Below are positions 467 to 15,793 of a stretch of DNA of 15,793 nucleotides, one piece after another. The notes under the pieces are model-generated. The model was not told the DNA's origin. It ran no database searches and saw only the letters and a program-made list of their open reading frames with translations. Origin of the DNA: Clostridia bacterium (GTDB taxonomy: Bacteria > Bacillota > Clostridia > Oscillospirales > Acutalibacteraceae); the NCBI GenBank assembly GCA_017614275.1, contig JAGACE010000033.1:1-15793 (forward strand), in the 5' to 3' direction. The translations under genes were made by a program, and so were the position numbers. How positions within the stretch are numbered: the stretch's first letter is position 1; every line of letters begins with the position of its first letter.

Positions 467-939
467 TCGGTGGATACCGCCTCTCCGGAGCGCTCGCCGG
501 CGTTCTTGATGGGTTCCTTGTCCACCAGTTCCTCCATCGTGTGCCAGCCGAGGACCGCGCACTTGACCCGGGACGGCATGTGGGAGATGTCGCGGAGCGA
601 GGAAGCTTCCTCCAGCTCTTCGATCTCCTCTTCCGTGGCTTCCTTTTTGATCATGCGCACGAAAATGTCCGCGAGGCGCTTGGCCTCGTCCTTGTGTTTG
701 CCGATGACGAGGTCCAGCATCATGTCGGCGGAGGCCATGGACACGGCGCAGCCGTCTCCGTTGTAAGACCCGTCTTCGATGATGCCGTCTTCGTTCATCT
801 TCAGCTGCAGGACGATGTCGTCGCCGCAGCTGGGGTTCAGCCCCTCGAGGATCAGATTCGGATCCTTGAGGTTGTATTTGTGCATCGGATGCAGGTTGTG
901 ATCCGTCAGGATCTCGTTGTAAAACGCGTTAATCGGCAT
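463..939 (-). CDS. sufU: SufU Fe-S cluster scaffold / zinc-dependent sulfurtransferase
   Basis: A 158-residue SufU, partner of SufS in the SUF pathway. In Bacillota SufU carries a zinc that exchanges a ligand with the SufS active-site cysteine and accepts the persulfide. The conserved ligands are visible: C38 and D40 in NPSCGDD, C64 in GDGCAVSMAS and C127 in VKCAVLGWHT. The stretch between C64 and C127 has the SufU-type insertion (EATEEEIEELEE region), which separates it from IscU. The C-terminal tail after about residue 142 (EPIKNAGERSGEAVSTE) is extra and looks disordered. The start overlaps the sufS stop by 11 bases, and its own Shine-Dalgarno is weak, which fits coupling to sufS translation. 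Its stop overlaps the next ATG. Confidence 0.96.
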   Translation of the reverse strand: MPINAFYNEILTDHNLHPMHKYNLKDPNLILEGLNPSCGDDIVLQLKMNEDGIIEDGSYNGDGCAVSMASADMMLDLVIGKHKDEAKRLADIFVRMIKKEATEEEIEELEEASSLRDISHMPSRVKCAVLGWHTMEELVDKEPIKNAGERSGEAVSTE

Positions 940-2149: not shown

Positions 2150-2186
2150 GATATGCTGTCTCTTTTCTCTGTCTCGCCGGGGCGAT

Positions 2187-3239
2187 CTACAGGTTGTTGT
2201 TGAATTCGACCAGTTCTTCGCAGAACGTCTCGTCGGGGATCTGCCGGATGGTGGCTTCCAGACGGGCCTTGGCCATCATCTCGTAGATCTCCTCGTTCGG
2301 GATGCCTCTGGATTCCAGATAGAAGATGAGGTCGTCCGCCAGCCGGCCGACGGTGCAGCCGTGCTCGCCGGAGACGTCTTCCTCCCCGCACAGGATGGTG
2401 GGGACCGTCTTGTTCGTGACGCCGTTGTTCATGAGCAGGACGTTCTCGTTCTCCTCTCCCGAGGACTTGACCGCGCCGGGCTGGAAATCGATGGTGGTCC
2501 GGAACACCTTGTAGCAGGTGTCGCGCAGGACGCCGGACGTGTAGATGTCGGTGTCGCACTCGCAGCCGATGTGATTGACATAGTAGTTGATGTCCATGGC
2601 GTGATCGTCCGCCGTCAGGTATCCGCTGTGGATGCTGGTGGACGCCTTGTCGCCGACCAGTTCCACATGGCCGCCGAGGTCGTTCTCCTTGCCGGTGAAG
2701 GCGATCTGGATGGCGTGGAATTCGCCGGTCTCGGCCACCTCCGCACCGAAGTCGTCGATGATGTGGAAGCCGTTTCCGCAGCGATGGACCTGCACGAGAT
2801 CCACGACCGCGCCCTTCCCGACTTTGATCCGGGTCTGGAACGCCGCGTAGCCGGCGGCGTCGTCCGCGGAGGCCACATCCATCAGGAGCGTCACCTTCGC
2901 GCCGTCGCCGACGACGAGCGCGTATTTGTCAAAGGTGCTGGTCCCGTCCGCCAGGTCGTAGCGGATGCGGATCGGCTCGTCGACCGAGACGCCGTCTGCT
3001 ACCGAAAAACCGGTGCAGGGAGCGTTCTCGAGCAGCGCGTCTACCTGGGGACCGCAGCCGCAGGCCACGGCGGCCGCTGCCGCACTGTCGGCGAGTTCGT
3101 CGACGCCCACAGGGCGCAGGACGGAGGGCGTTCCGGCCTCTCCTTCCGCCGCAAAGTCCACCGTGCGCTCGTTCATCTTGAGCCAGCGCCAGGTGATCCT
3201 CTTCATGCGGTTCAGGGTAATGCTTTTTACTTCAGCCAT
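2187..3239 (-). CDS. sufD: SufD, subunit of the SufBCD Fe-S assembly complex
   Basis: A 350-residue SufD. With SufB and the ATPase SufC it forms the cytosolic SufBC2D complex on which nascent Fe-S clusters are built. The C-terminal beta-helix and helical region carries the family signature GEEDVSGEHGCTVGRL. H293 there corresponds to the conserved SufD histidine at the SufB-SufD interface, and FYLESRG follows. A TTG six bases upstream is in frame, but an AAAGGAG sits eight bases from the ATG at 3237-3239, so I choose that ATG (MAEVKSIT). The segment from about 45 to 75 is alanine- and cysteine-rich and poorly conserved. SufD and SufB here are clearly homologous at their C-termini, as in all SUF systems. 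The gap to sufB is 22 bases. Confidence 0.95.
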   Translation of the reverse strand: MAEVKSITLNRMKRITWRWLKMNERTVDFAAEGEAGTPSVLRPVGVDELADSAAAAAVACGCGPQVDALLENAPCTGFSVADGVSVDEPIRIRYDLADGTSTFDKYALVVGDGAKVTLLMDVASADDAAGYAAFQTRIKVGKGAVVDLVQVHRCGNGFHIIDDFGAEVAETGEFHAIQIAFTGKENDLGGHVELVGDKASTSIHSGYLTADDHAMDINYYVNHIGCECDTDIYTSGVLRDTCYKVFRTTIDFQPGAVKSSGEENENVLLMNNGVTNKTVPTILCGEEDVSGEHGCTVGRLADDLIFYLESRGIPNEEIYEMMAKARLEATIRQIPDETFCEELVEFNNNL

Positions 3240-3261
3240 TTTCAAAACTCCTTTCCCGCAA

Positions 3262-4671
3262 TCAACCGATGGCTCCGACCATTTCGAGCCGGATGAGGTT
3301 GTTCATTTCCACCGCGTATTCCAGCGGCAGTTCTTTGGAAACGCTTTCCGCGAAGCCCGAGACGATCATCGCCCGCGCGTCCTCTTCGGAGATGCCGCGG
3401 GACATGAGGTAGAAGACCGCTTCATCGGAGATCTTGCCGATCTTCGCTTCGTGGCCGACGTCGGAGTTCTGGTTCCGGACGTCGATGGCCGGGATGGTGT
3501 CCGACCGGGAGATGCTGTCGAGCATCAGGGACGTACAGCCCACGATGGACTTGGACTCGTCCGCGTTCGGGGCGATGACCACAGACGTCCGCGTGTTGGA
3601 GATGCCGCCGTCCTTACAGATGGAACGGGTGTTGACGGACGAGGTCGTGTGTTTCCCGATGTGGTTGACCTTCATGCCGGTGTCCAGCTCCTGGCCGGCG
3701 CCGGCAAAGGTGATGCCGGTGTAGTCCATCTTGGAGTGGTCGCCCTTCAGGACGGTCATCGGATACAGATAGGAGGTGTGGGACCCGAAGGAACCGGAGA
3801 CCCACTCCATGGCGCTGTTCTCCCCGACCGTGACCCGTTTGGTGTTCAGGTTGTACATGTTCTTCGACCAGTTCTCGATGGTCGAGTACCGCATCTTCGC
3901 GTTGTTCCCGACGAAGATCTCCACACAGCCCGCGTGGAGGTTCGCCACCGAATACTTCGGCGCGGAGCAGCCCTCGATGAAGTGGAGCTTCGCGTTGTCG
4001 TCCACGATGATGAGGGTGTGCTCGAACTGGCCGGCGCCCGGGGCGTTCAGCCGGAAATAGGACTGCAGCGGGATCTCCACGTCGACGCCCGGCGGGACGT
4101 AGACGAAGGAGCCGCCGGACCAGACGGCACCGTGCAGCGCCGCGAAGGGGTGCTCGCCCGGCCGGACCAGATGCATGAAATGGTCCTTGATCATATCGCC
4201 GTAAGGGCCGTGCAGCGCGCTCTCAATGTCGGTGTAGATGACGCCCTGTGCCGCCACTTCCGCGCGGATGTTATGGTAAACGAGCTCCGAGTCGTACTGG
4301 GCGCCGACGCCGGCGAGCGATTTGCGCTCCGCCTCCGGGATGCCGAGGCGCTCGAAGGTGTTCTTGATGTCCTCCGGGACGTCCTCCCACTTGCCGGCCA
4401 TGCCGGTCTTGGGCTTGACGTAGGTGACGATGTTGTCCAGGTTCAGGCCGTCGATGGAGGGGCCCCACGGGGGCATCTTGGAATGGGTGAAGATGTCCAG
4501 GCACTTCAGCCGGAAGTCCCGCATCCATTCCGGATCGTTCTTTTCTTCGGAGATCTGCAGGACGATGTCCCGGGTCAGACCGGTATCGACTCTGTAAAAA
4601 TCGATCTCCTCGTCTCGAAAGTCGTAGAGGTCGCGCTGGACGTCCTCGACGAACGTTTTCTCTTTTGCCAT
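3262..4671 (-). CDS. sufB: SufB Fe-S cluster assembly scaffold
   Basis: A 469-residue SufB, the normal length. It is the scaffold of the SufBC2D complex and receives sulfur from the SufS/SufU relay. Recognised by PPWGPSIDGLNLD, WSGGSFVYVPPGVDVEIPLQ, the long beta-helix with GDHSKMDYTGITFAG, and the end motif GHEAKIGKISDEAVFYLMSRG. C379 (SIVGCTSLM) and E408 (GHEAKIG) correspond to the cysteine and glutamate shown to matter for cluster assembly in E. coli SufB. A GAGG lies eight bases before the ATG. It begins 16 bases after sufC. The sufC-sufB-sufD-sufS-sufU order differs from the B. subtilis order, where sufB is last. Confidence 0.98.
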   Translation of the reverse strand: MAKEKTFVEDVQRDLYDFRDEEIDFYRVDTGLTRDIVLQISEEKNDPEWMRDFRLKCLDIFTHSKMPPWGPSIDGLNLDNIVTYVKPKTGMAGKWEDVPEDIKNTFERLGIPEAERKSLAGVGAQYDSELVYHNIRAEVAAQGVIYTDIESALHGPYGDMIKDHFMHLVRPGEHPFAALHGAVWSGGSFVYVPPGVDVEIPLQSYFRLNAPGAGQFEHTLIIVDDNAKLHFIEGCSAPKYSVANLHAGCVEIFVGNNAKMRYSTIENWSKNMYNLNTKRVTVGENSAMEWVSGSFGSHTSYLYPMTVLKGDHSKMDYTGITFAGAGQELDTGMKVNHIGKHTTSSVNTRSICKDGGISNTRTSVVIAPNADESKSIVGCTSLMLDSISRSDTIPAIDVRNQNSDVGHEAKIGKISDEAVFYLMSRGISEEDARAMIVSGFAESVSKELPLEYAVEMNNLIRLEMVGAIG

Positions 4672-4687
4672 GTCGCGTTCCTCTCTG

Positions 4688-5443
4688 TTATTCCGCTTTG
4701 TCCGCTTCGATGTACTTCTCGAAGCCTTCGGTGAAGATCTCGTCGATGAGTTCCTTGCCGCCGCTCTTGACGATGCGGCCGTCCACCAGGATGTGGGTAT
4801 GGGTCACTTCCAGCGCCTCCAGGATGGCGGCGTTGTGCGTGATGATGAAGAGCGATTTGCCCTCCTTCTTCTGGAACTCCTGGATGCCTTTGGAGACGAC
4901 GCGCACCGCGTCGACGTCCAGACCGGAGTCCGTTTCATCGAGGATGGCGAGTTCCGGGTCCAGGATGAGCAGCTGGAGGATCTCCGCCTTCTTTTTCTCG
5001 CCGCCGGAGAAGCCGACGTTGAGGTCCCGGTCCGCGTAGTCCTCCGGGATAGTCAGGATGTTCGCGATCTCCTTGACCTGCTTGCGGAAGTTCCACAGTT
5101 TGACCCGCTCCCCCGTCCGCATCTCGATGGCGTTGCGCATAAAGTTGGCCACGGTGATGCCGGGGACTTCGATCGGGTTCTGGAACGTCATGAACAGACC
5201 TGCCTTGGCGCGCTTGTCCGCGGTCTCCGCGAGCAGGTCCATGTCGCCGTACGTGATGGACCCTTCGGTCACTTCATAGGCCGGGTGGCCCATGATAGCG
5301 TTGCCGAGGGTGGATTTCCCCGCGCCGTTCGGGCCCATGAAGACATGGGTCTCGCCGGGGTTGATGGTCAGGTCGATGCCGTGCAGGATCTCTTTTTCTC
5401 CGACGCCTGCCTTCAGGCCTCTGACTTCCAATGTTGCTGCCAT
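4688..5443 (-). CDS. sufC: SufC ATPase of the SUF Fe-S assembly complex
   Basis: A 251-residue ABC-type ATPase that is cytosolic rather than part of a transporter. ATP-driven dimerisation of SufC reshapes SufB-SufD so the cluster can form. All nucleotide-site elements are intact: Walker A GPNGAGKST (37-45), Q-loop Q88 in TFQNP, signature FSGGEKKKAEILQ (from 145), Walker B LAILDETDSGLD (165-176) and H-loop H203. FSGGEKKK and DETDSGLDVDA are specific to SufC within the ABC family. First gene of the operon. A GGAGG (5450-5454) precedes the ATG and an IscR-like operator/promoter lies just upstream. Confidence 0.98.
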   Translation of the reverse strand: MAATLEVRGLKAGVGEKEILHGIDLTINPGETHVFMGPNGAGKSTLGNAIMGHPAYEVTEGSITYGDMDLLAETADKRAKAGLFMTFQNPIEVPGITVANFMRNAIEMRTGERVKLWNFRKQVKEIANILTIPEDYADRDLNVGFSGGEKKKAEILQLLILDPELAILDETDSGLDVDAVRVVSKGIQEFQKKEGKSLFIITHNAAILEALEVTHTHILVDGRIVKSGGKELIDEIFTEGFEKYIEADKAE

Positions 5444-5810: not shown

Positions 5811-7424
5811 TCAGTCCGCCTGGCCGTTCAGGGCGGCAAAGGCTTTCCTGTTGTTCTTGTAGAGGCTCTTGAAGACCTTGAAGTTCCGGTCGTGGACCGC
5901 CTTGTTGGCGGGGTTCGGCTCGTAGGTCTTGCTGGCCGGGATGAAGTCCTTGACCTTGTCGATGGACGAGATGGTCCCGAGGCCCACGCCCATGATGGCC
6001 GCGGCGCCGACCGCGCCCACGTTCTGGGGCGAGCGGACCGTCTCGATCTTCCGCCCGGTGACGTCCGCCAGGATCTGGCAGGTGACCGGCGACAGGGCGC
6101 CGCCGCCGACGAAGCGGACGGTGTCAGACGTCTTGACGTGCTTGGCCTCCTGCTCCAGCATCCAGCGCTGATGGTAGCAGACGCCTTCGACGACCGCGCG
6201 GATCATCTCGCGCTTGCCGGTCTCCAGGTCGATGTTGAAGAACATGCCGGCCGCGTTCGGGTCCTCGAACGGGCAGCGGTTGCCGTGGAGCCAGGGCGTG
6301 AAGATGACGCCGTTCGAACCGGCAGGCACGGTGCGGATGATCTCCGTCAGGTAGTCGTACAGACTGGTGTAGGTGCCCTCCAGGTCGCCCTGTTTCTCCG
6401 TGACGTCGTGCTTGTCGAGGTAGATGTCCACCTCGTCGAGCGCCAGATGGTCCTTGACCCATTCGACGCACTTGGCCGCGGTCTCCATCTCCGCGAAGTA
6501 GTTGTAACGGCCCTCCTGCGCGCCGACGATGGCGGCGATCATGGCCATCACGTCCACCTTCTGCTTTTCGAGGACGGTGCCGACCCAGCCGGAGGTGCCG
6601 GAGTAGATGTGGGTGTCTCCGGGCATGACGGCGCCCGCGCCCACCGGGATGAGCGAGGCGTCTCCGCCGCCGCCGAAGACGGCGATGCCGGGCACCAGAC
6701 CAAGGTCCTCCGCCGCTTTTTCGGTCAGCGGACCGACCTCGTCGGTGGACTTGACGATGGGCGGAAGGTGTTCCTTGTAAATGCCCATCATGTCGCAGAT
6801 CTTGTCGCTCCAGCCCTCGTGGCCCTTGCGGGTGTCGTAGAGGAGCGTGGCGAAGGCCGAGTCCTCGGTCATCACACATTTGCCGGTGCAGCGGCAGATG
6901 AGGTATTCCTTGACGTCGAGCCATTTGTAGATGTTGTCATACACCTCGGGCTCGTTGTTCTTGATCCAGAGGTATTTGAAGATCGGGTCCTTCACGGAGG
7001 AGGACACCGCGTGCGTGTAATAGAAGTACGGGACGAACTTGAACAGGTTGGCGCCGGCGATCTGCGGACCGTAGGCGATGGCCTGCTTCAGTTCCTTCTT
7101 GCCCCGCTGGTCCATGTAAGACATGGCGGGCCGGAGGGCCTTCCCCTCTTTGTCGACGACCACGACGCCCTGCATCTGGCTGCAGAAGGAGATGCCGTCG
7201 ATCTGCTCCGGTCGGATCTCGGTCTCGGAGAAGATCTTCTTCGTGGTGACGCACATGGCGTCCCACCACTCGTCCACGTTCTGTTCGACTCCGCCGTTCT
7301 CGAGGACGGTCAGACCGTAGCCCATGGAAGCGGATTCCAGGAGCGTGATGATCCGGTCGATGCGGAACAGACAGGTCTTGACGCCGGTGGTGCCGATGTC
7401 ATACGCCAGTACATAGTTTTCCAT
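5811..7424 (-). CDS. FGGY-family carbohydrate kinase (xylulokinase-like)
   Basis: A 537-residue sugar kinase of the FGGY/ASKHA fold, which transfers phosphate from ATP to a sugar or polyol in the cytosol. Numbering here runs from the upstream Met at 7430, so subtract 2 for my start. Phosphate-1 loop DIGTTGVKT (11-19), substrate region SFCSQMQGVVVVD, catalytic aspartate D257 in GGGGDASL, phosphate-2 loop YSGTSGWVG (276-284), FGGY C-terminal signature region PWLHGNRCPFEDPNAAG, and adenosine-site GGGALSP (442-448). It is somewhat longer than typical xylulokinase (about 500). Two ATGs compete. AAGGAG is only two bases from the one at 7430 but eight from that at 7424, so MENYVLAYD is preferred. 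It is 13-19 bases after the TetR gene, hence the same transcript. The substrate is unknown; partnership with a class II aldolase suggests a ketose or deoxy-sugar. Confidence 0.93.
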   Translation of the reverse strand: MENYVLAYDIGTTGVKTCLFRIDRIITLLESASMGYGLTVLENGGVEQNVDEWWDAMCVTTKKIFSETEIRPEQIDGISFCSQMQGVVVVDKEGKALRPAMSYMDQRGKKELKQAIAYGPQIAGANLFKFVPYFYYTHAVSSSVKDPIFKYLWIKNNEPEVYDNIYKWLDVKEYLICRCTGKCVMTEDSAFATLLYDTRKGHEGWSDKICDMMGIYKEHLPPIVKSTDEVGPLTEKAAEDLGLVPGIAVFGGGGDASLIPVGAGAVMPGDTHIYSGTSGWVGTVLEKQKVDVMAMIAAIVGAQEGRYNYFAEMETAAKCVEWVKDHLALDEVDIYLDKHDVTEKQGDLEGTYTSLYDYLTEIIRTVPAGSNGVIFTPWLHGNRCPFEDPNAAGMFFNIDLETGKREMIRAVVEGVCYHQRWMLEQEAKHVKTSDTVRFVGGGALSPVTCQILADVTGRKIETVRSPQNVGAVGAAAIMGVGLGTISSIDKVKDFIPASKTYEPNPANKAVHDRNFKVFKSLYKNNRKAFAALNGQAD

Positions 7425-7443
7425 GCTCATTTCTCCTTCTCAC

Positions 7444-8121
7444 TCAGTGCAGTTTCTGTATGTCGCCGCGGGAGAACGTGAAGGCGGACTCCAGGAATTT
7501 CAGGAGTTCCTCCACGACCTTCTCGTCGTTGTCGAACACGTCGTCTCCGCAGTAGACCTTGAAGCGCTCCCGGTAGTAGTCGCAGGTGTAGGAAAACTGC
7601 AGGGTCATCAGCAGGGAGTCGAAGAAGAACGCGAAGAAGCGTTCGTCCAGATCGTCCCGGACGTCCCCCTCTTCCTTCGCCCGTTCCAGGAACCCGGCGT
7701 AGGCGCGGTAGGAGATCCCCTCGATCTTCTCGGCATAGTAGCGGACCTTGTCCTCGTCCGACATCTTCGTGATCTCGTTGTAGAGCTTCACGTAGCGGGA
7801 CTCCTTCCCGCTGGTCTGCTGGATGGCGCGGATGAGTTTCTCCGCGCGGACAAGGATCTTGTCGTCGGACTGCAGGACCGATTCGATGACCTGATTGAGT
7901 TCCTCGATGGCCTGCTCCAGACAGAGGATGAACAGGTCCTCCTTGGTCTCGAAGTACTTGTACATCAGGCCGATCGAGATACCGGCGTTTTTCGCGATGA
8001 CGTTGATGTTGGCGTTCTCGAAGCCGTGCTGCGAGAACTCGTTGATGCCCGTCTGCAGGACGGTCTCCCGGCGGGCGGGATCGGCCCGTTCGAAGGCCGG
8101 TTTGCAGTGTTTCTGCTCCAT
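7444..8121 (-). CDS. TetR/AcrR-family transcriptional regulator
   Basis: A 225-residue TetR-type repressor. The N-terminal helix-turn-helix is clear: ETVLQTGINEFSQHGFENAN, then NINVIAKNAGISIGLMYKYF (38-57) and ETKEDLF. The C-terminal ligand and dimer domain (from about 65) is helical and rich in aromatic residues (FFAFFFDSLL, YTCDYYRERF) but not recognisable by ligand. GGAGAG lies five bases before the ATG. It is the first gene of the minus-strand unit with the kinase and is divergent from the aminotransferase/aldolase pair. Two near-identical palindromes in the shared upstream spacer, one behind each promoter, are its likely operators, making it an autoregulated local switch relieved by a pathway compound. 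Confidence 0.95.
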   Translation of the reverse strand: MEQKHCKPAFERADPARRETVLQTGINEFSQHGFENANINVIAKNAGISIGLMYKYFETKEDLFILCLEQAIEELNQVIESVLQSDDKILVRAEKLIRAIQQTSGKESRYVKLYNEITKMSDEDKVRYYAEKIEGISYRAYAGFLERAKEEGDVRDDLDERFFAFFFDSLLMTLQFSYTCDYYRERFKVYCGDDVFDNDEKVVEELLKFLESAFTFSRGDIQKLH

Positions 8122-8145
8122 AGTCTCTCTCCATTTTCGCTTAAG

Positions 8146-8161
8146 GTGAGCAATTACTCAT
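8146..8161. promoter_or_regulatory. TetR operator, copy 1 (regulator side)
   Basis: GTGAGCAATTACTCAT is a 16-base near-palindrome with arms TGAG/CTCA and matching A/T centre. It fits the same pattern, GTGAGYAnnnRCTCAY, as the copy at 8298-8313. It lies four bases downstream of the minus-strand -10, so a bound dimer would block transcription of the TetR gene itself. Confidence 0.8.
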
Positions 8162-8165
8162 CCCC

Positions 8166-8195
8166 ATTATAATACAACCGCCAAAATCTTTGCAA
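8166..8195 (-). promoter_or_regulatory. Promoter of the TetR-kinase operon
   Basis: Minus strand: TTGCAA (8190-8195), 18-base spacer, perfect TATAAT (8166-8171). The start would fall near 8159, inside operator copy 1. Confidence 0.75.
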
Positions 8196-8274
8196 GACAT
8201 CGGAGACCTCTGTGGAAAACACACAGAAAAAATGCAAAAAATCGCGGTTTCCTCTTCCCTTGTCCCGGTAAGAA

Positions 8275-8283
8275 TGGTATACT
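8275..8283 (+). promoter_or_regulatory. Promoter of the aminotransferase-aldolase operon
   Basis: An extended -10 element TGGTATACT with only a poor -35 upstream. The start would be near 8290, a few bases before operator copy 2, leaving a leader of about 68 bases. Confidence 0.65.
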
Positions 8284-8297
8284 GTATCTTGTAAAGA

Positions 8298-8313
8298 GTG
8301 AGTAGCCGCTCAC
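8298..8313. promoter_or_regulatory. TetR operator, copy 2 (catabolic-gene side)
   Basis: GTGAGTAGCCGCTCAC shares the outer TGAG...CTCA arms and spacing of the copy at 8146-8161 (12 of 16 positions identical) while the centre differs. It lies just downstream of the plus-strand -10, a classic roadblock/repressor position. Confidence 0.8.
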
Positions 8314-8357
8314 CGCTGCTCAGAGATCCGGAAAACAACGATTGGAGGAAGACAACT

Positions 8358-9851
8358 ATGGATACCAGATTCGCCATCTCGCAGTACCCCGACGCCAAGG
8401 CGCTGAACGATGAACTCAACGCCCTCATCAAGAAACCCATCTATTCCATCGCCCCGGAGGCGCTGAAAGCGTACGAGGACGAGTACTACGGCAAAAAGTG
8501 CCAGAAGTCCAAGGCGATGATCGAAGAGGCCAAGTCGGTCATCCCCGGCGGCGTCCAGCACAACCTCGCGTTCAACTACCCCTTCCCCCTGGTCTTCACC
8601 AAGGCCGAAGGCGCCAAGCTCTATGACATCGACGGCAACGAATACTACGACCTGCTCCAGGCCGGCGGCCCCACGGTCCTCGGTTCCAACGACCCGGTCG
8701 TCCGCGAAGCGGTCATCGACCTGCTGAACACCTGCGGCCCTTCCACCGGTCTGTTCCACGAATATGAGTACAAGCTCGGCAAGAAGATCGCCGACAGCGT
8801 CCCGTCCGTCGACATGTTCCGCATGCTCGGTTCGGGTACGGAGGCCTGCATGTGCGCGGTCCGCGTGGCCCGTCTTGCCACCAAGAAAAAGAACATCCTG
8901 AAAATGGGCGGCGCCTACCACGGCTGGTCCGATCAGCTGGCCTGGGGCATGCGTGTCCCCGGCACGAAGAACCTGCAGTCCCGCGGCGTCCCGATGTTCG
9001 TGTTCAAGCACACCCAGGAATTCTTCCCCGGCGACCTCGAGGATCTGGAGAAGAAGCTCTGGCTCAACAAGTTCAACGGCGGCACGGCCGGCGTGTTCAT
9101 CGAGCCCATCGGCCCCGAGTCCGCCACCCGTCCCGTTTCCGAAGAGTTCGTCAAGGGCGTGGAGACCCTCTGCCGCAAGTACGGCGCGCTCCTCATCTGT
9201 GACGAAGTCGTCTCCGGCTTCCGCATCGGCATGGCCGGTGCGCAGGGCTACTACGGCATCGACCCCGACCTCACCATCTTCGGCAAAGTCATCGCCGGCG
9301 GTTATCCGGGCGCGGGCGGCGTCGCCGGTCACAGAGACGTCATGAAACATCTCGGCGCGGGCCTCGACAGCTCGGGCAAGAAGGTCAAGAAAGCGATGTG
9401 CGGCGGCACCATGGCTGCCACCCCCATCTCCTCCATTGCGGGCTACACCGCCATCTGCGAGATCGAGAAGAGAAACGCCTGCCAGGTCGCCGGCCAGAGA
9501 GCCGACCAGCTGGTCAAGGGCATCAACGAGTCCATCGCGAGATACAACTTACCGTTCGTCTGCTACAACATCGGCTCCGTCTGCCACCTGCACACGGTCG
9601 CCACCATGCAGTACGCCATCGATTGGGGCAAGCTGTGGCAGGTCCCGAAGATCCTCGACGAGACCGGCCTTCGTCAGAAGGAGATGGAGCACATGGGCGC
9701 CGCTTACATGGCGGAAGGCATCGTCACGCTCGCCGGTTCCCGTCTGTACACCTCCGCGGCCTACACCCCGGAGATGATCGACGACGTCATCGGCCGCTTC
9801 GACAAGGTCCTCTCCCAGTGTGAGAAACTGGAGATCGTCAAGAAGAAATAA
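8358..9851 (+). CDS. Class III (GSA-type) PLP aminotransferase
   Basis: A 497-residue fold-type I aminotransferase of class III, closest in look to the glutamate-1-semialdehyde / beta-amino-acid aminotransferase branch. PLP-site features: GSGTEA (158-163), AYHGW (186-190), ICDEVVSGFR with D282, and the Schiff-base lysine K310 in IFGKVIAGGYPGAG. It moves an amino group between a substrate and a keto acid; the substrate is not readable. It is about 60 residues longer than ordinary HemL, mostly in the N-terminal lead before VIPGGVQHNL, and no haem genes are near, so a haem role is unlikely. GGAGG eight bases before the ATG at 8358 fixes the start; an in-frame upstream codon at 8298 lies inside the operator. 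Codons end in C to an unusual degree, suggesting high expression. First gene of the plus-strand operon. Confidence 0.93.
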   Translation: MDTRFAISQYPDAKALNDELNALIKKPIYSIAPEALKAYEDEYYGKKCQKSKAMIEEAKSVIPGGVQHNLAFNYPFPLVFTKAEGAKLYDIDGNEYYDLLQAGGPTVLGSNDPVVREAVIDLLNTCGPSTGLFHEYEYKLGKKIADSVPSVDMFRMLGSGTEACMCAVRVARLATKKKNILKMGGAYHGWSDQLAWGMRVPGTKNLQSRGVPMFVFKHTQEFFPGDLEDLEKKLWLNKFNGGTAGVFIEPIGPESATRPVSEEFVKGVETLCRKYGALLICDEVVSGFRIGMAGAQGYYGIDPDLTIFGKVIAGGYPGAGGVAGHRDVMKHLGAGLDSSGKKVKKAMCGGTMAATPISSIAGYTAICEIEKRNACQVAGQRADQLVKGINESIARYNLPFVCYNIGSVCHLHTVATMQYAIDWGKLWQVPKILDETGLRQKEMEHMGAAYMAEGIVTLAGSRLYTSAAYTPEMIDDVIGRFDKVLSQCEKLEIVKKK

Positions 9852-9871
9852 GAAAGGCTTCGGGTGAACTT

Positions 9872-11101
9872 ATGGCCATCGAAAAACGCAAGGCTCAGGA
9901 ACTGGTCGTCAAGGCCGGCCTGGAGCTCATGGAGAGCGGGCTCATCGCCCGGACCTGGGGCAACGTCTCGGCCCGAGTCGAAGACAATGTGTTCGTCATC
10001 ACGCCCAGCGGCATCCCCTATGAGAAACTGACGCCGGACGACATCGTGGAAGTCACCATCGACGACTGCTCGTACGACGAGAACGGCCTGAAACCCTCCT
10101 CCGAGAAGGGCGTCCACGCCGCGGCATACAAGCATCATCCGGAGTGTGACTTCGTCATCCACACCCATCAGATCTACGCCTCCGCGCTCAGCATCACCGG
10201 GCAGGACCTCACGGTCTCCGGAGACGCCAAAGCGGTCCTGGGCGCCGTCGTCCCGAACGCGGAGTACGGCATGCCCTCCACCGGCAAACTGAAGGACGCG
10301 GTGGACACCGCCATCGCGAAGAACCCTGCAAGCAAAGCCATCCTCATGCGCCACCACGGCACGGTCTGCCTCGGCACGGACTATGACGACGCGTTCCAAG
10401 TCGTCAACACGCTCGAAGACTTCTGCAAGGAGCAGATGGCAAAGACCCTGCAGAGCGTCGGCCGCGACAGCAGCCTGACGGCGGAGGATCTAGCAGCCGT
10501 CTACACCGCTTCGATCGTCGCGCCGGAGGACCGGGACATTCCGCAGGTGGACCTCGGCAGTTCCCTGCGGGAGGGCGACACCTTCACCCTCTTCCTGGAC
10601 GGCGGCGAGAAGTATGTCTGCTCCGTGGAGACCGGCAAGTCGGTCCCCGGAGAAGCCATCGCGCCCCGGGTCTCGGAGCTCCACGCGGCCATCTACCAGC
10701 ACTCCGACGACGTGCTCATCCGCAACTATCAGACGCCGGAAGCTGTCGCACTTTCCAAAAAGGGCGAAGCCGAGAAGGCCTGGCTGGACGACTTCACGCA
10801 GATCGCCGGCGCCAGCGTCTCGAACTGCAACTGGGATCCCACCAGTTACCGCACGGACGCCGCGGCGATCGGCAAAGCCGCCTCCGGCCGGAACGCGGTC
10901 CTCATCAAGGGACAGGGCGCGGTCTGCACCGGACGGAACCCCTATGATGCCGACGCGGTCAAGCTGGTCCTGGAAAAGGAAGCCGTCGCGGCGATGTATG
11001 CCGGCCTCGTGTCCGGCACGAAGCCCCTCGGCGGACCGGACCGCATCATCCAGCGCCTGGTGTACCAGCTGAAGTACTCCAAACAGGCGGACAAAAAATA
11101 A
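9872..11101 (+). CDS. Class II aldolase/adducin-family protein with a second, degenerate aldolase domain
   Basis: 409 residues, about twice the size of a FucA/AraD-type aldolase (about 215-230). Residues 1-200 form an intact zinc aldolase domain: GNVSAR (30-35), TPSG (44-47), SSEKG with acid E78, HTH with H97 and H99, and HHG with H162, matching the metal ligands and catalytic Glu of fuculose-1-phosphate aldolase. Residues about 230-405 repeat the same fold: SELHAAIYQHSDDVLIRNYQ mirrors the first copy's SEKGVHAAAYKHH...IHTHQ, and LIKGQGAVCTG mirrors LMRHHGTVCLG. The second copy has lost all three histidine ligands. The first half probably cleaves a phosphorylated sugar made by the neighbouring kinase; the second half may be structural or regulatory. 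The start follows the aminotransferase by 20 bases, so they are co-transcribed. Confidence 0.92.
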   Translation: MAIEKRKAQELVVKAGLELMESGLIARTWGNVSARVEDNVFVITPSGIPYEKLTPDDIVEVTIDDCSYDENGLKPSSEKGVHAAAYKHHPECDFVIHTHQIYASALSITGQDLTVSGDAKAVLGAVVPNAEYGMPSTGKLKDAVDTAIAKNPASKAILMRHHGTVCLGTDYDDAFQVVNTLEDFCKEQMAKTLQSVGRDSSLTAEDLAAVYTASIVAPEDRDIPQVDLGSSLREGDTFTLFLDGGEKYVCSVETGKSVPGEAIAPRVSELHAAIYQHSDDVLIRNYQTPEAVALSKKGEAEKAWLDDFTQIAGASVSNCNWDPTSYRTDAAAIGKAASGRNAVLIKGQGAVCTGRNPYDADAVKLVLEKEAVAAMYAGLVSGTKPLGGPDRIIQRLVYQLKYSKQADKK

Positions 11102-11134
11102 CGATTCCTCTCCATACTGGATACATAACTGAGG

Positions 11135-11169
11135 AAGCCCCCGACGACCGGACCGGTCATCGGGGGCTT
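11135..11169 (+). terminator. Intrinsic terminator between convergent operons
   Basis: A 10-bp GC-rich stem (AAGCCCCCGA 11135-11144 with TCGGGGGCTT 11160-11169) extended by an inner GACC/GGTC helix. The plus-strand tail is only moderately T-rich. It ends the aldolase transcript and, because genes converge here, may also stop the peptidase transcript. Confidence 0.75.
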
Positions 11170-11194
11170 TCGCATGGTTTTGTCTGTCAGAAGA

Positions 11195-12442
11195 TCATTT
11201 CTCCTCTTCGTAGAGGATGCCGTTCTCAAACATCTCGAGGACCTTCATGGAGGCCGCGTAGCAGTCCCCGATGCCCTGGTGGTTGAGGTTGTCATAGGTA
11301 TCTCTTCTGGTGTGGTAGTAGTTCTCCAGTTTGTGGTTCAGACCGGTGACGCCGCCGGAACGGAACCCGCCCTGCGCGAAGGCGGCCGTGTCCGTGGCAC
11401 CGCCCAGCGGCGGGACCCAGCCCTTGCGGCAGGCGATGCCGAGTTCTTCACAGGCTTTCATGAAGATGTCGTTGGCCTGCTTGTCGGTCTTGACAGTGCC
11501 GTTGAGGTCCCGATAGTTGGCCATGAGCCACTTCGGGTCGTGGATGGTGTCATAGGAATAGATGATGGTGGGGACGTCCCGGAACTCGCCCTTGTGCGCC
11601 TCGGCCCAGGCCTTGGAGCCGCGCAGGCCCGCTTCCTCGGAACCGCAGATGATCACGCCGACTTCGGTATTCTCCAGCTCGACGCCTTCGTCGTGGAGCG
11701 CCTTCAGGACGGCGATGCCCATCTCGCAGCCGGTGAGGTTGTCGTTGGCACCGTCGACGATGCGGCGCTCATTCCACATGAAATAGAGGCCAAGCAGGAA
11801 CGGGACGAACAGGAGGCCCCAGACGCCCATCTTGGTCAGCAGGAGCGAGGACGGACCGCCCAGGATGCTGCCGTTTTTGATCATGGAGGCGATGGAGATG
11901 CCGAGGGTGTAGAACAGACCGCCGAAGCCGATGATGGCGTGTGCCTCGAAGGCGACGCCGCCGAACTTGTAGTTGACGGGCCACTCCCACACGGCGTCGC
12001 AGTGGCCGTTGTAGAAGATGCGCTGTTTCACTTCGCCCTTGGGCTTCTTGATGGCCATCATGTTGTGCCCGATCTTCTTTTTGAAGAACGGATCCATGAC
12101 TTTCTTGTACATCCCGAATTGCAACAGGGCGATCACGGCTCCTGCCGCACACAAAAGGGCGCTCACGATCGGCGCGAACCAGTAGCAGACCATGGCGATC
12201 AGGACCATGGTGACGGCGAAATAGATCCAGCCCATGAACGAGTTGGGGTTCTCCTCGAACTCTTCGATGACGATCTCTTCGCAGCCGTACTCCTCACAGA
12301 GTTCCGCGTAGTATTCGCAGGCCTGGAGTTCCCCCTTGGAACCCGGGTCTCTCTTCTCAAAGGTCTTGATGATATGCGTGATGTCCCCGATGATCCAGTC
12401 GGCCATCTGGTCCTTCATATCGATCAGTTTCTGCAGTTTCAT
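11195..12442 (-). CDS. M28-type metallopeptidase with four internal membrane helices
   Basis: A 415-residue zinc aminopeptidase-like protein. The co-catalytic metal residues of family M28 are recognisable: H147 and D149 (NGHCDA), D234 (DGANDNLTG), E269-E270 (GSEEAG), D298 (SYDTIHD) and H377 (YYHTRRDT). Hydrophobic segments interrupt the catalytic domain: about 68-90 and 91-109 before H147, and about 167-187 and 203-223 between the first and second ligands. The enzyme is therefore membrane-embedded, unlike soluble or secreted M28 aminopeptidases. There is no cleavable signal peptide. The likely role is trimming peptides at the membrane; the substrate is unknown. AAGGAG lies 13 bases before the ATG, farther than usual. 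It has its own promoter and is downstream of the DMT exporter on the same strand. Confidence 0.88.
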   Translation of the reverse strand: MKLQKLIDMKDQMADWIIGDITHIIKTFEKRDPGSKGELQACEYYAELCEEYGCEEIVIEEFEENPNSFMGWIYFAVTMVLIAMVCYWFAPIVSALLCAAGAVIALLQFGMYKKVMDPFFKKKIGHNMMAIKKPKGEVKQRIFYNGHCDAVWEWPVNYKFGGVAFEAHAIIGFGGLFYTLGISIASMIKNGSILGGPSSLLLTKMGVWGLLFVPFLLGLYFMWNERRIVDGANDNLTGCEMGIAVLKALHDEGVELENTEVGVIICGSEEAGLRGSKAWAEAHKGEFRDVPTIIYSYDTIHDPKWLMANYRDLNGTVKTDKQANDIFMKACEELGIACRKGWVPPLGGATDTAAFAQGGFRSGGVTGLNHKLENYYHTRRDTYDNLNHQGIGDCYAASMKVLEMFENGILYEEEK

Positions 12443-12615: not shown

Positions 12616-13563
12616 TCAGGCGTCGGACGGTGTTGCTTTTTCTTTGATCCATTTTTCCAACGGGAGCTGGGAGAGCACGACGGCGATGAACATGATGGCG
12701 CAGCCAATGTATTCCCGCGCGGTCAATCGCTCGTGGAGGACGATGGCGCCCGACACGACCGCGAACACCGCCTCCAGGCTCATCAGCAGGGAGACCAGCG
12801 TCGGGTTGGCGTCTTTCTGGGCGATGATCTGCAGCGTATAGGCCACGCCGCTGGACAGGAGCCCGGCATACAAAACGGGACCTATGACCGCCAGGAAGTC
12901 CGCCCAGGCCACATCCGAGAACAGCAGCATGAGGATGCCGCTCTCGATGGCCACGACGACGAACTGGGCGCAGGACAGCTCGATGCCGTTGAGCAGGCCC
13001 GAATAGTGGTCGATGGTCATGATCTGGAAGGAGAACGCCAGCGCGCACAGGATGAGGAACAGGTCGCCTTTCTCGATCCGGAACGTCCCGGCCTGAATGG
13101 ACAGGAGGTACAGCCCCAGGATGGCCAGCAGGACGCTGATCCAGACGCGGGCCGGCACCCGTTTGTTCAGGAACAGCCCGAGGACCGGCACCAGGACGAC
13201 ATAGAGCGCGGTGATGAACCCGGATTTCCCGGCCCCGCTCAGCGCGATGCCCGCCTGCTGCAGGTTGGCGGCCACAGTCAGCATGGTGCCGCAGATGACG
13301 CCGCTGATGAGCAGCGCCCTCCGCCCCCGCTTCTTCTCTTCCGGCGTCGGTTCCGTAAGGACGCCTCTGGCGCGGGAGTTCCGCTTCTTCCAGACGCGGA
13401 CGCCCCAGGCGACAAGAAACAGGAAGACCGCCGCCACGACGCTGCGAGCCATGTTGAATGCAAAGGCGTCCAGCCGCTCCGACCCTTCGACCTGCGCGAC
13501 AAAAGCCGTCCCCCAGATGAAGGCGGCTAACACAGGCAGGAAGGTTTGGCGGATAAAACTCAT
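12616..13563 (-). CDS. EamA/DMT-family transporter (ten-helix metabolite exporter)
   Basis: A 315-residue membrane protein of the drug/metabolite transporter superfamily, built from two EamA halves (about 5-150 and 158-305) with ten predicted helices. Family marks include FIWGTAFVAQ at the start, NLQQAGIALSGAGKSGFITALY in the first half, and SGVAYTLQIIAQKDANPTLVSLLMSLEAVFA in the second. A charged loop (about 60-85, KKRNSRARGVLTEPTPEEKKR) joins helices 2 and 3 in the cytosol. Members export amino acids, cofactors or other small metabolites; the cargo is not predictable. GGGGAG about ten bases before the ATG supports the start. An overlapping longer frame on the same strand (12551-13639) is a shadow. 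Confidence 0.9.
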   Translation of the reverse strand: MSFIRQTFLPVLAAFIWGTAFVAQVEGSERLDAFAFNMARSVVAAVFLFLVAWGVRVWKKRNSRARGVLTEPTPEEKKRGRRALLISGVICGTMLTVAANLQQAGIALSGAGKSGFITALYVVLVPVLGLFLNKRVPARVWISVLLAILGLYLLSIQAGTFRIEKGDLFLILCALAFSFQIMTIDHYSGLLNGIELSCAQFVVVAIESGILMLLFSDVAWADFLAVIGPVLYAGLLSSGVAYTLQIIAQKDANPTLVSLLMSLEAVFAVVSGAIVLHERLTAREYIGCAIMFIAVVLSQLPLEKWIKEKATPSDA

Positions 13564-13597: not shown

Positions 13598-13627
13598 ATT
13601 ATATCGTACGGACAACCATTTGTCCAA
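13598..13627 (-). promoter_or_regulatory. Promoter of the DMT transporter gene
   Basis: Minus strand: TTGGAC (13622-13627), 18-base spacer, perfect TATAAT (13598-13603). The leader is about 28 bases. It follows directly after the terminator of the non-coding transcript, so the transporter is expressed separately. Confidence 0.65.
13610..13625. promoter_or_regulatory. Candidate operator in the DMT promoter
   Basis: A perfect inverted repeat GGACAA-CCAT-TTGTCC that overlaps the -35 and fills half of the spacer. The position suits a repressor. The binding protein is unknown, and a chance origin is possible for a 6-bp arm. Confidence 0.45.
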
Positions 13628-13641
13628 TCCTGCGTCCATAC

Positions 13642-13676
13642 AAAAAAAGGAAGCAGCTCATTTCTGAACTGCTTCC
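13642..13676 (-). terminator. Intrinsic terminator of the giant non-coding RNA
   Basis: An 8-bp stem GGAAGCAG/CTGCTTCC (13649-13656 with 13669-13676), with inner TCA/TGA pairing, followed on the minus strand by seven T (A13642-A13648 on plus). No gene ends nearby upstream on that strand; the only thing it can terminate is a transcript from the 13.7-14.8 kb island. Confidence 0.9.
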
Positions 13677-13887
13677 CGATTACCTAGAACATTGGAGTTT
13701 CCTCACAAACTCAGTTGGTTTGGAACGTTGTTTGTTTGAACTTTCTTAATACTCTCAGAAAATCAATTGAAACTGAATTTCGGACTCACCTTGTTTCTTT
13801 TGAGTTCTAATGGTTTCCCCTTTGTTTCTGAATGTTTATTCTGTTCAAGGTTGTTTTTGTAGTTATCAAACTCTCGGTCACCGTTTT

Positions 13888-13899
13888 TCAGTTGATCTG
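13888..13899 (+). repeat. 12-base direct repeat inside the ncRNA, copy A
   Basis: TCAGTTGATCTG, identical to 14320-14331, with similar T-rich right flanks. It may mark a repeated structural module of the RNA. Confidence 0.6.
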
Positions 13900-14016
13900 G
13901 TTTCGTTGCATTTCACTGTTTCCGTTTCAGCTACTATGTCTGTCTCCGACAGTCATTTCTTTCTCTGAAATGTATCCGGATCTTATGATCTGCGTCCTCT
14001 ATTGACATTGTCTTTT

Positions 14017-14027
14017 TCAGAAGACCT
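14017..14027 (+). repeat. 11-base repeat inside the ncRNA, copy A
   Basis: TCAGAAGACCT; its partner TCAAAAGACCT is at 14066-14076 (10 of 11 identical). In the RNA both read as AGGTCTTYTGA. Confidence 0.5.
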
Positions 14028-14065
14028 CTGTCTCATTCGCACCTCAGAGCGGTCGTTTCTCCGTC

Positions 14066-14076
14066 TCAAAAGACCT
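14066..14076 (+). repeat. 11-base repeat inside the ncRNA, copy B
   Basis: TCAAAAGACCT, one mismatch from 14017-14027. The two lie 49 bases apart. Confidence 0.5.
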
Positions 14077-14319
14077 TCGAAACTGTTTCGGTTTCCTTCT
14101 TTAGAAGCGATTCATAAGTTTACCTTCGTTCTTATGAATATTGGTCTTTTGTCTGATTGCCTCTTTACACCAGGTTAGACGTTGCTTGGGTTCCAAGTCG
14201 CCTGCTCAACGTTGGTCTTGACTTTTTGAAAAGACGTTCGTCGTTTGGCTTTGACGCTTCTTGATCTTTCTGGGTGTTTGCCTGATCCTTCGTTTGTTAT
14301 GAAATGTGATGGAATAATG

Positions 14320-14331
14320 TCAGTTGATCTG
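14320..14331 (+). repeat. 12-base direct repeat inside the ncRNA, copy B
   Basis: TCAGTTGATCTG, identical to 13888-13899, 432 bases away. Confidence 0.6.
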
Positions 14332-14804
14332 TTTTAGGTTGTTCCGGAGTTTCTTCATTCTGATGGCGGTCCTTTCGGATTGCTCTGTCAGAATGGCGCT
14401 TCTTTCAAATTATGTTCTCTTTTCTGTTTTGTTTTGGAGAGGAATTTGAAATCAGCTCATTATTATGTTTTGACCGATTCCGCTTTCCTCTTCGAAAGCC
14501 TGGCCTTAAGAAATTCATTCTTTGATTTTACCGGGTCTCTTCCCTGATGTCAGTTTGTTCTGGATCGTTTTCCCGGCAGCGAATTAAAGGAACGCTCTCG
14601 AAGATTATTTGCGGGATACCTCTTCACTGTACATTGGAATCATTCCTTTCGCAGCACCTTTTTTGTTCCATTTTATTACATGGGACGGTGCCAGATACTT
14701 TTGAAGAAATTGAGAACTCTTAACACTTTTGTTTTTCAGGTTTTCGTTCAGCCGTTATGGCTGTTTGTTTTCCTGTAAGTGTGGTTCTTCTTTTCTTCGC
14801 CTTC

Positions 14805-14833
14805 ATATTATCATTGAAACGTACAAAAGTCAA
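14805..14833 (-). promoter_or_regulatory. Strong promoter of the giant ncRNA
   Basis: Minus strand: TTGACT (14828-14833), exactly 17 bases, TAATAT (14805-14810), the best sigma-A-like match in the window. The start is predicted near 14798. The upstream 60 bases are A/T-rich with A- and T-tracts, UP-element-like, which again points to strong, constitutive expression. Confidence 0.88.
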
Positions 14834-14962: not shown

Positions 14963-15793
14963 TCAGATGGAGATCTCGTGCGCCATACGGTAGATGTCGA
15001 TGTCGATGGCCTTTTCCATCTGCAGGGCCTCTTCGATGTCGTAGTCCACGATGGTGTCGTTCCGGATGCAGACGACCCGGCTGGAACAGTTGTCCCGGAG
15101 CAGACGGGTGGCGTAGTTCCCCATCCGGGACGCCAGTACCCTGTCGTTGACCGTGGGTGATCCGCCGCGCTGGACGTGGCCGAGGATGGTGGCCCGGGAC
15201 TCGACGCCGGTCTCCTCCTCGATCTGCTTGGCCATGACGGTCGCGTCGCCGCAGCCCTCCGCGAAAATGATGATGAAGTGCTGCTTGCCGGTGGAGATGG
15301 TCTTCTTCATGCGCTCGACGACGTCGATGTCGAAGTCGTACTCGAATTCCGGGATCAGGATGCTGGTGGCACCGACGGCGATGCCGGAGTACAGGGCGAT
15401 GTACCCCGCCTTGCGTCCCATGACCTCGATGACAGAGCAGCGGCTGTGGGACTCGGTGGTGTCGCGCACCATGTCGACCATCTGCATGACGGTGTTGACC
15501 GCCGTGTCGAAACCGATGGTCAGGTCCGTACAGGAGATATCGTTGTCGATGGTGCCGGGGATGCCGACGCAGTTGATGCCTTTGTGGGAAAGCGCCTGGG
15601 CGCCGCGGAACGAGCCGTCACCGCCGATGACGACGACGCCTTCGATGCCGAGCCGCCGGCACATGTCCGCGGCCTTCTCCTGGCCCCGGTCGGTCATGAA
15701 TTCCATGCTCCGGGCCGTGCGCAGGACCGTGCCGCCCCGCTGGACGATGTTGGACACACTGCGGAGGTTCATTTCCGTGACGTCTCCGGACAT
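14963..15793 (-). CDS. pfkA: ATP-dependent 6-phosphofructokinase, C-terminal 276 residues (start outside window)
   Basis: Phosphofructokinase of the PfkA family phosphorylates fructose 6-phosphate at C1 in glycolysis. Visible: GGDGSFRGA (57-65), catalytic PGTIDND (79-85), GFDTAVNTV, MGRKAG (125-130), IIFAEG, and GHVQRGGSP (205-213). Glycine in GGDGS, rather than the aspartate of pyrophosphate-dependent enzymes, indicates ATP use. Family members are about 320 residues. The Met at the window edge aligns with the interior SGD/NGD region after the N-terminal ATP loop, so it is not the true start and about 40-45 residues lie to the right. The end is complete and followed by a strong terminator. 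Confidence 0.95.
   Translation of the reverse strand: MSGDVTEMNLRSVSNIVQRGGTVLRTARSMEFMTDRGQEKAADMCRRLGIEGVVVIGGDGSFRGAQALSHKGINCVGIPGTIDNDISCTDLTIGFDTAVNTVMQMVDMVRDTTESHSRCSVIEVMGRKAGYIALYSGIAVGATSILIPEFEYDFDIDVVERMKKTISTGKQHFIIIFAEGCGDATVMAKQIEEETGVESRATILGHVQRGGSPTVNDRVLASRMGNYATRLLRDNCSSRVVCIRNDTIVDYDIEEALQMEKAIDIDIYRMAHEISI

Follow-up and report, generated by a model that had tools for sequence, protein, structure and literature searches.

What is encoded between pfkA and an EamA-type transporter gene near one end of the Clostridia contig studied here? The DNA analysed in full (15,793 nucleotides; the window) has at this place an AT-rich island. A sequence-only reading had described it as a free-standing, structured non-coding RNA of roughly 1.15 kb on the minus strand, belonging to GOLLD, ROOL or OLE or else to a new class. 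The G+C content of the island (about 13.6 to 14.8 kb) is 40–42%, against 52–66% for the other 500-nt windows in a scan of the entire sequence. No ORF of 60 or more amino acids (ATG, GTG or TTG to stop) lies inside 13690–14750 on either strand, and two listed ORFs reach only into the ends of the RNA by overlap. The island in its GC-rich surroundings is thus real as regards ORFs of usual size; "gene-free" goes too far, as three conserved micro-ORFs with ribosome-binding sites lie inside it. The features of the locus are as follows.

14963..15793, minus strand: pfkA (PF00365), broken off at the contig end
14922..14949, minus strand: likely terminator of pfkA, stem and U-run
14805..14833, minus strand: promoter TTGACT-17-TAATAT, 9 of 12 consensus positions matched
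13643..14799, minus strand: the RNA, 1157 nt from expected start to end of the terminator U-run; ends predicted, from promoter/terminator scan, homologues and covariation
13648..13677, minus strand: intrinsic terminator of the RNA, 13-bp stem and a run of U; two-sided change in 5 of 12 consensus pairs
13598..13626, minus strand: promoter-like site of the downstream EamA gene, TGGACA-17-TATAAT, 11 of 12 consensus positions
12616..13563, minus strand: EamA-type transporter gene (PF00892)

The promoter and the terminator said to bracket the island on the minus strand were both located by scan. The window promoter is weak on its own (the 1.5 kb scanned holds four promoter-like sites, where shuffles would give 1.9); upstream of the RNA, TTGAC and a TATAAT-like −10 recur in 8 of 8 genomes of the genus examined. 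The likely pfkA terminator parts that gene from the RNA. Its stem and U-run appear in a sub-threshold Leu_leader alignment, and the terminator scan gives the stem on the plus strand. With a terminator-like stem and U-run for pfkA and a promoter-like site for EamA, the RNA unit appears to stand alone. The remainder of the window includes genes for an FGGY sugar kinase, a class-III aminotransferase, a class-II aldolase and an M28 peptidase (5811–12442, by Pfam) and, on the minus strand at 463–5443, look-alikes of a suf iron–sulfur cluster operon (by eye).

A homologue lies downstream of pfkA in all eight genomes of the genus examined. Blastn recovers the RNA region in seven of them. The eighth (G003) was recovered, at E = 0.256 only, in a sensitive search with R1, a covariance model built on the 3′ domain; synteny and sequence agree, with a similar promoter, modules and terminator lying between pfkA and EamA. 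Identity to the window over the aligned RNA is 74–75% in four genomes, 69% in G001 and 50% in G006. In G006 the contig of the RNA also carries pfkA upstream of it, and a radical-SAM-like gene (by eye) lies between the two. A 19-nt pattern of the 3′ end occurs in 2 of 394 genomes of the order, the window and G006 only, and blastn matches of 28–32 nt were seen in G056 and G058. As to source, three of five genus genomes come from goat or roe-deer gut sites and two are RUG bins, presumably from rumen.

These loci bear on whether the RNA is a cis-acting leader or attenuator, in which ribosomes on the last micro-ORF would control the terminator and hence the downstream gene. The last module of the RNA (see below) often ends a few nucleotides ahead of the terminator stem, as such control would have it. 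EamA, however, has its own promoter-like site; it directly follows the RNA in the window and G003 but lies about 3.4–3.5 kb farther in five of the eight genomes (G001, G002, G004, G005 and G007), and the G006 contig stops before any EamA. Promoter-like sites also follow the terminator in the more distant relatives G098, G198 and G409 (by eye), and the recurrent neighbour elsewhere is divergent. We consider a leader function very unlikely.

The hairpins of the original reading were evaluated by folding and by comparison of homologues. The minimum free energy of the 3′ 961 nt lies well below that of shuffled sequences (z = −4.1; 0 of 20 shuffles as good). The complementary strand gives z = −5.5 and a consensus energy of −178.5 kcal/mol against −174.7 kcal/mol for the RNA strand. 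Both strands thus fold equally well and the fold cannot decide between them; the minus strand is assigned from the promoter, the terminator and the ribosome modules. The RNAalifold consensus of six species has 272 pairs (−174.7 kcal/mol), 25 column-shuffled alignments giving −86.9 ± 5.8. Covariation across the homologous intergenic sequences was assessed with RNAalifold and pair counts. Two-sided compensatory change is found in 39 of the 272 pairs against 12.5 ± 2.8 in shuffles, none of 500 reaching 39; with four of the six sequences 89–94% alike, about three independent lineages underlie these counts. When partners are slid by 1–3 columns at most 8 pairs show two-sided change, a comparison that favours the unslid version since the structure was taken from the alignment on which it was counted. 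On the consensus structure 95.7% of cells pair (92.6 in shuffles). The covariation term of RNAalifold itself is no better than in shuffled alignments (−2.4 vs −4.8 ± 1.9). Two domains stand out.

13909..14306, minus strand: central structured domain, closed by 14306–14300 with 13915–13909; 18 predicted helices inside (helices 20–37)
13682..13851, minus strand: 3′ domain, closed by a 9-pair helix (helix 39; 13851–13842 with 13691–13682) that covers most of micro-ORF C

The closing helix of the central domain has seven pairs, two with two-sided change, and zero unpaired cells. In helix 39 every cell is paired; eight of its nine pairs are invariant, so it yields little covariation evidence. G006 retains ACUUGAAC and GUUCUAGAU of this helix. 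In the genus layout, module A lies near the 5′ end and is followed, after a structured body of about 830 nt, by modules B and C close to the 3′ end. The GNRA tetraloop of the sequence-only reading may be GAG-GAAA-CUC at 13704–13695, in which case it is the ribosome-binding site of module C. Conservation and covariation rule out a chance AT-rich island. Fold, consensus, covariation, promoter and terminator support a free-standing, folded RNA gene of about 1.15 kb on the minus strand, its transcript being predicted.

The RNA was then compared with catalogued families. A cmscan of the window with the 4227 Rfam families (release 15) gave zero matches at gathering score, and on the island no large-RNA family matched even at E ≤ 10. 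The Rfam searches of relatives' loci gave no ROOL, GOLLD or OLE match at the limits used there; they did return 6S RNA, a T-box below gathering score and further sub-threshold matches, among them a PyrG_leader match that falls on the terminator of G198. Blastn of phage and plasmid records found no match to the RNA. Two RNA patterns had no match in viral contigs, and the viral match of a third (L118) lies inside an ORF and was set aside as chance; a mobile or viral origin is therefore unsupported. The window has no tRNAs, and its neighbouring genes are metabolic with no phage context. A pattern with spacing 48–78 had 0 matches in 391 class genomes, which is uninformative as the spacing excludes the window's own copy. 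Size, A-rich linkers and the ribosomes reported on GOLLD (in the available part of PMC12286853) would suit a divergent ROOL, GOLLD or OLE member; with no Rfam covariance-model match in window or relatives, no tRNA in the window and no phage or plasmid match, we find such membership hardly credible and dropped it. That the RNA matches no catalogued family searched and forms a new class is supported, the homologues found by blastn and the relatives that models R1–R3 found in other families speaking for a class over a chance island. The open-licence PMC literature searched, as far as its available text goes, held no RNA of this description.

Relatives beyond the genus reveal which part of the RNA is conserved. 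A search of 396 genomes with R1 (stricter filters, E ≤ 0.1) gave only two matches outside the genus, G583 (another genus of the same family, E = 0.0014) and G081 (another family, E = 0.015). These two, G003, G006 and the window have three motifs in common, A, B and C, each a Shine–Dalgarno (SD)-like stretch followed by UCC(A/G/C)A(U/A)(G/A). A sequence model of B to C (R2) and a single-module model (R3) both led to arrays in further genera and families. At E ≤ 1, R2 had matches in 114 of 394 genomes of the order, many doubtless by chance, and the best ones were followed. R3 matched 30 of the 30 genomes given at E ≤ 1, of which 26 had been preselected by earlier matches and four were named: Faecalibacterium sp. 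I4-3-84 (G972), Ruminococcus flavefaciens FD-1 (G973), Merdimmobilis hominis An559 (G974) and Candidatus Faeciplasma pullistercoris (G975). The first three are carriers, the copy in Faecalibacterium sp. I4-3-84 lying at about 813,767–814,509 of the chromosome by the boundaries set here. G974 is the same DNA as G140, which is placed in the window's order; NCBI places M. hominis and R. flavefaciens in Oscillospiraceae. R3 also gave single-module matches, in G081 (C45) and others, and three loci fetched on R3 matches hold no array (G366a, G366b and G283b). Under stricter filters, R3 applied to the whole class matched 12 of 226 genomes (E ≤ 0.01), of which G000, G098 and G102 had been identified before. 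One locus was inspected in each of the other nine, eight of them from other orders and one (G072) from the same order; this sample showed no array outside the order. Among the candidates, L218 has two loose matches at most 500 nt apart, the first of which begins a long ORF, and the two overlapping rows of L220 are one site; both were rejected. L224 (G072, of the same order) has two loose matches within 300 nt on the minus strand (1516 and 1781), possibly a short array. In G081 (L110/L117, 645–900) all three modules, A, B and C, occur within a shortened RNA of about 256 nt, upstream of an mraZ-like gene (by eye). In G246, G283 and G972 (L185, L186 and L198) TCTGCGAATAGA sits at or just before the −35 region, perhaps as a regulator site. 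RNA length across the relatives is 246 to 1665 nt by the boundaries set here, with ends placed by eye from pattern scans, G583 cut at 10700 without a scan, and no 3′ end found in the pattern scans for G975 and G431b. Outside the genus no sequence is shared in the RNA body; the module alone is widely conserved.

The repeated module is AAAGGGUGAGUCCAA(U/A)G, and its parts are the sole k-mers shared above shuffles across 23 of the 27 transcripts compared: all listed 9-mers above the shuffled maximum belong to it, GGTGAGTCC occurring in 16 of the 23 against a shuffled maximum of 6. The 27 transcripts are the 27 array-search loci less G140 (a near-duplicate of G179, of the same genus) and the array-less G366a, G366b and G283b, plus G003, G081, G583 and the window, which stands for G001, G002, G004, G005 and G007; L179 was excluded as identical DNA to L202. 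The modules of the window and their micro-ORFs are:

14635..14654, minus strand: module A, CUGCGAAAGGAAUGAUUCCA; extended SD, predicted duplex of −14.8 kcal/mol with GGAUCACCUCCUUUCU of the 16S rRNA tail
14605..14634, minus strand: micro-ORF A, AUG UAC AGU GAA GAG GUA UCC CGC AAA UAA (MYSEEVSRK)
13781..13800, minus strand: module B, AAAGAAACAAGGUGAGUCCG; predicted duplex with the 16S tail −16.7 kcal/mol
13763..13789, minus strand: micro-ORF B, GUG AGU CCG AAA UUC AGU UUC AAU UGA (VSPKFSFN)
13693..13712, minus strand: module C, GAGUUUGUGAGGAAACUCCA; SD within a GNRA mini-hairpin, −8.5 kcal/mol, the weakest of the three
13684..13692, minus strand: micro-ORF C, AUG UUC UAG, a two-codon minigene just ahead of the terminator

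Complementarity of the module to the 16S tail is extended, taking in the GGA beyond the usual anti-SD. The 16S rRNA genes of Faecalibacterium and R. flavefaciens end in GGATCACCTCCTTTCT, which is taken as the mature 3′ end; a 16S match was obtained in 2 of 11 genomes searched, the window's not among them. Over 98 modules in the 27 transcripts, mean calculated duplex energies are −13.6 kcal/mol for the 68 with AUG and −13.8 kcal/mol for the 30 with AAG or AAA (AAR) in its place, against −6.1 kcal/mol for shuffled modules and −10.0 kcal/mol for 401 long-ORF starts (best of up to three ATGs). The AAR count retains spurious-looking rows (e.g. G975 2881, G431b 1348 and G972 1831) and the last modules of G246, G283 and G972 (MTPKK), which fit an ordinary AUG start with short spacing. 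(U/C)CC occupies −4 to −2 in only 2 of 306 ordinary SD-led starts. The strict module pattern has 3 matches in 1.45 Mb of control (both strands) and 125 overlap-inflated matches in 19.7 kb of transcripts, with 0 antisense to them. Because the transcripts were picked by model match and the counted modules carry (U/C)CC by selection, neither this density nor the UCC pairing is an independent test; the shuffle and frame tests are fairer. Each transcript has one to eight counted modules (median 3). Where UGANUCC and an SD are both present, the next triplet is AUG in 30 cases, AAG or AAA in 25 and another in 8. Nine nucleotides upstream of that position, non-AUG modules have GUG (24), AUG (8) or UUG (1), and the frames read mostly M-S-P-K/T, often ending S/T-L-V/A/I. 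In AAR modules the only usual start codon (GUG or AUG) abuts the SD, a poor spacing. The idea that UCC is conserved for the codons it forms (Ser-Pro) was discarded in the case of AUG modules, since upstream of many of them there is no in-frame start.

The micro-ORFs are likewise conserved, and A, B and C stand out among all start codons aligned in six species of the genus. Micro-ORF A keeps its nine-codon frame and SD in 6/6 species, with stop UAA or UGA; G003 and G006 also have nine codons, with stop UAG. For micro-ORF B the GUG frame is aligned in 6/6 and the SD pattern present in 5/6, and AAA (13780–13778) occupies the AUG place of other modules. Micro-ORF C, a two-codon minigene as is lambda bar, is identical with its SD in 6/6, and reads AUG UUC UAA in G003 and AUG UUC UAG in G006. 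A further aligned GUG frame (column 1193; VRKLQCSR or VRKFQCSR in 6/6, SD pattern in 4/6) overlaps C. Across the transcripts, a stop within 10 codons follows in frame in 56 of 68 AUG modules, as compared with 32 and 31 in the other frames, and in 28 of 30 AAR modules (17 and 19). In genomes without an R3 seed, such a stop follows in frame in 38 of 45 AUG modules, as opposed to 24 and 19 (P 5e-5), and in 12 of 12 AAR modules, as opposed to 7 and 6 (P 0.006); a stop-within-3-codons test gives only P 0.05 for the latter. The word "non-coding" is thus doubtful: the RNA is marked by a conserved ribosome-docking module and its micro-ORF, with in-frame stops that exceed chance.

The arrays of relatives are dominated by very short frames: MAIEPAQFGQAVGTR, MY, MF, MY, MF, then AAG in G246; M, MYR, MR, MNK, then AAG in G386; and four times MR, then AAG in R. 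flavefaciens FD-1 (G973). In the last (L205, sense 1205–1450) the four AUG AGA UAA modules lie at 70-nt spacing. Some relatives (G042, G198) have longer first frames. Such frames could also mean that the RNA is a polycistronic mRNA for functional micropeptides, selected for an M-(S/T)-P-(K/T)-x-(S/T)-L-(V/A/I) family and the first peptide, with the body a mere carrier. Unrelated loci do give VSPKNSLI, VSPKNSLV, VSPKKTLV, VSPTKTLV, VSPKKSLA, MSPKKYLA, VSPKKVL and MTPKK, in differing codons and with all three stop codons, and several micro-ORFs are common to G283 and G972 (by eye). Many modules, however, encode just M, MY, MF, MI, MR, MQ or MG, too short for a specific product, and ORF C of the genus is MF only. 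Moreover, the reading frame through the ORF A stretch (CAGTTT, then CTGTCGGG) differs between G098 and G246; its likeness is thus at the RNA level, and peptide likeness needs care. We judge the micropeptide explanation unlikely, if worth keeping in mind. The CTGTCGGG k-mer was found in G098, G246 and G283, not in G162, and was also read in G972, with CTGTTGGG in G583; CUGUCGGG of the ORF A region recurs in G246, G283 and G972. We also observe a hairpin over micro-ORF A in G098 (L182) and G583 (L116). Its loop is GUCUGU(C/U)GGGCU, and its arms are unlike in sequence yet complementary (by eye: GAAGUGCA/UGCACUUC and AUAGUGA/UCACUAU).

A further explanation takes the modules as protection: 30S subunits bound there would shield a long structured RNA from 5′–3′ exonuclease, and the body would do the work. 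The precedent is the STAB-SD of cry3A, which, in the portion of PMC4113751 available, blocks RNase J1 and can interact with the 16S 3′ end while directing no translation; RNA can be protected by an SD-like site at which 30S binds but starts no translation. AAR modules do resemble such non-initiating sites, and the structured body is conserved in the genus. Yet there are up to eight modules, often reaching the terminator, the favoured AUG and the in-frame stops would be needless for shielding, and outside the genus the body has no shared sequence. Protection as the main role seems to us quite unlikely.

We return to ribosome engagement, through which the RNA probably works. In the mechanism we propose, the purine-rich stretch together with UGA(G/U)UCC could pair with the whole 3′ tail of 16S rRNA. 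The AUG, or AAA/AAG instead, would then sit about at the P site, usually with an in-frame stop within a few codons. Initiating 30S subunits would bind the modules. AUG modules would lead to very short translation, of two-codon minigenes (AUG-UUC-UAG) or of peptides mostly up to about 20 amino acids, and AAR modules would hold 30S without a proper start codon. In the genus, the conserved helix would partly bury module C. The RNA gene, its structure, the module, the 16S complementarity, the in-frame stops and the lack of arrays outside the order in the sample are computed here; from these we infer transcription, 30S binding and translation. On balance we favour a new class of ribosome-engaging RNA in the window's order (Oscillospiraceae and kin), with the modules as the function-bearing part. 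That it serves to hold or count ribosomes, and not for the making of peptides, is conjecture.

A neighbour of the RNA is of interest here. The Rfam scan finds 6S RNA in the fetched stretch of 9 of 19 genomes outside the genus, above gathering score in eight (G179 and G140 being one genus) and below it in G973, where the match is cut by the end of the stretch. In the eight loci examined, 6S RNA is divergent from the module RNA with one small DUF1292-like gene between them, which is DUF1292 by Pfam in both cases tested (G583 and G973) and alike by eye elsewhere. The scanned stretches of the other ten genomes and the window have no 6S RNA. The neighbourhood 6S RNA, DUF1292-like gene, module RNA recurs in L109, L180–L183, L199, L201 and L205. 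6S RNA acts on RNA polymerase. It is possible, though we would sooner expect otherwise, that the module RNA is its ribosome counterpart: tandem complements of the full 16S tail would capture 30S subunits, permit translation of minigene length only and so tune the supply of ribosomes for initiation, with the two RNAs encoded back to back in several genera.

If the reading as a ribosome-engaging RNA is true, gut and rumen bacteria possess a large RNA that works through arrays of ribosome-docking sites and tiny reading frames, and supposed giant non-coding RNAs may engage ribosomes. Direct RNA regulation of the ribosome pool would become testable, as for 6S RNA and RNA polymerase. Copies in Faecalibacterium sp. 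I4-3-84, Ruminococcus flavefaciens FD-1 and Merdimmobilis hominis An559 make testing practical.

Among known systems, 6S RNA is likewise free-standing, is a near neighbour in nine genomes and engages a core machine; it differs in having no Rfam sequence likeness to the module RNA and in its divergent transcription, with the DUF1292-like gene between the two in the eight loci examined. The raiA-motif RNA is presumably an Rfam family. This RNA (ModT; PMC11706538, in the part available) is also a conserved structured RNA of Bacillota, and gave no match here. GOLLD, ROOL and OLE are large structured bacterial RNAs with covarying helices too, and according to the accessible text of PMC12286853 ribosomes were bound to GOLLD in pull-downs. 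Unlike them, the module RNA has no covariance-model match and no tRNA or phage link, and carries a repeated complement of the 16S tail with micro-ORFs in 246–1665 nt. The STAB-SD of cry3A is likewise SD-like and can pair with the 16S 3′ end, as the modules can by calculated duplexes, but in what is available of PMC4113751 it is one 5′ site on an mRNA, whereas the RNA here is free-standing and has several such sites, mostly with an AUG that a stop soon follows. The in-frame stops of AUG modules are as expected of translated frames; in AAR modules no AUG stands at the right spacing. There is also a likeness in form to two-codon minigenes such as those of the ler and txe leaders, AUG-codon-stop behind an SD (PMC8708949, in the sections available), to which module C conforms in 6/6 species. 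The MY, MF, MR and MI units of relatives also fit this form, their translation being predicted. In the same sections of PMC8708949, the minigenes act on expression in cis, within leaders, and some are toxic if overexpressed, via peptidyl-tRNA release; here, up to eight modules stand in tandem in an RNA with its own promoter and terminator.
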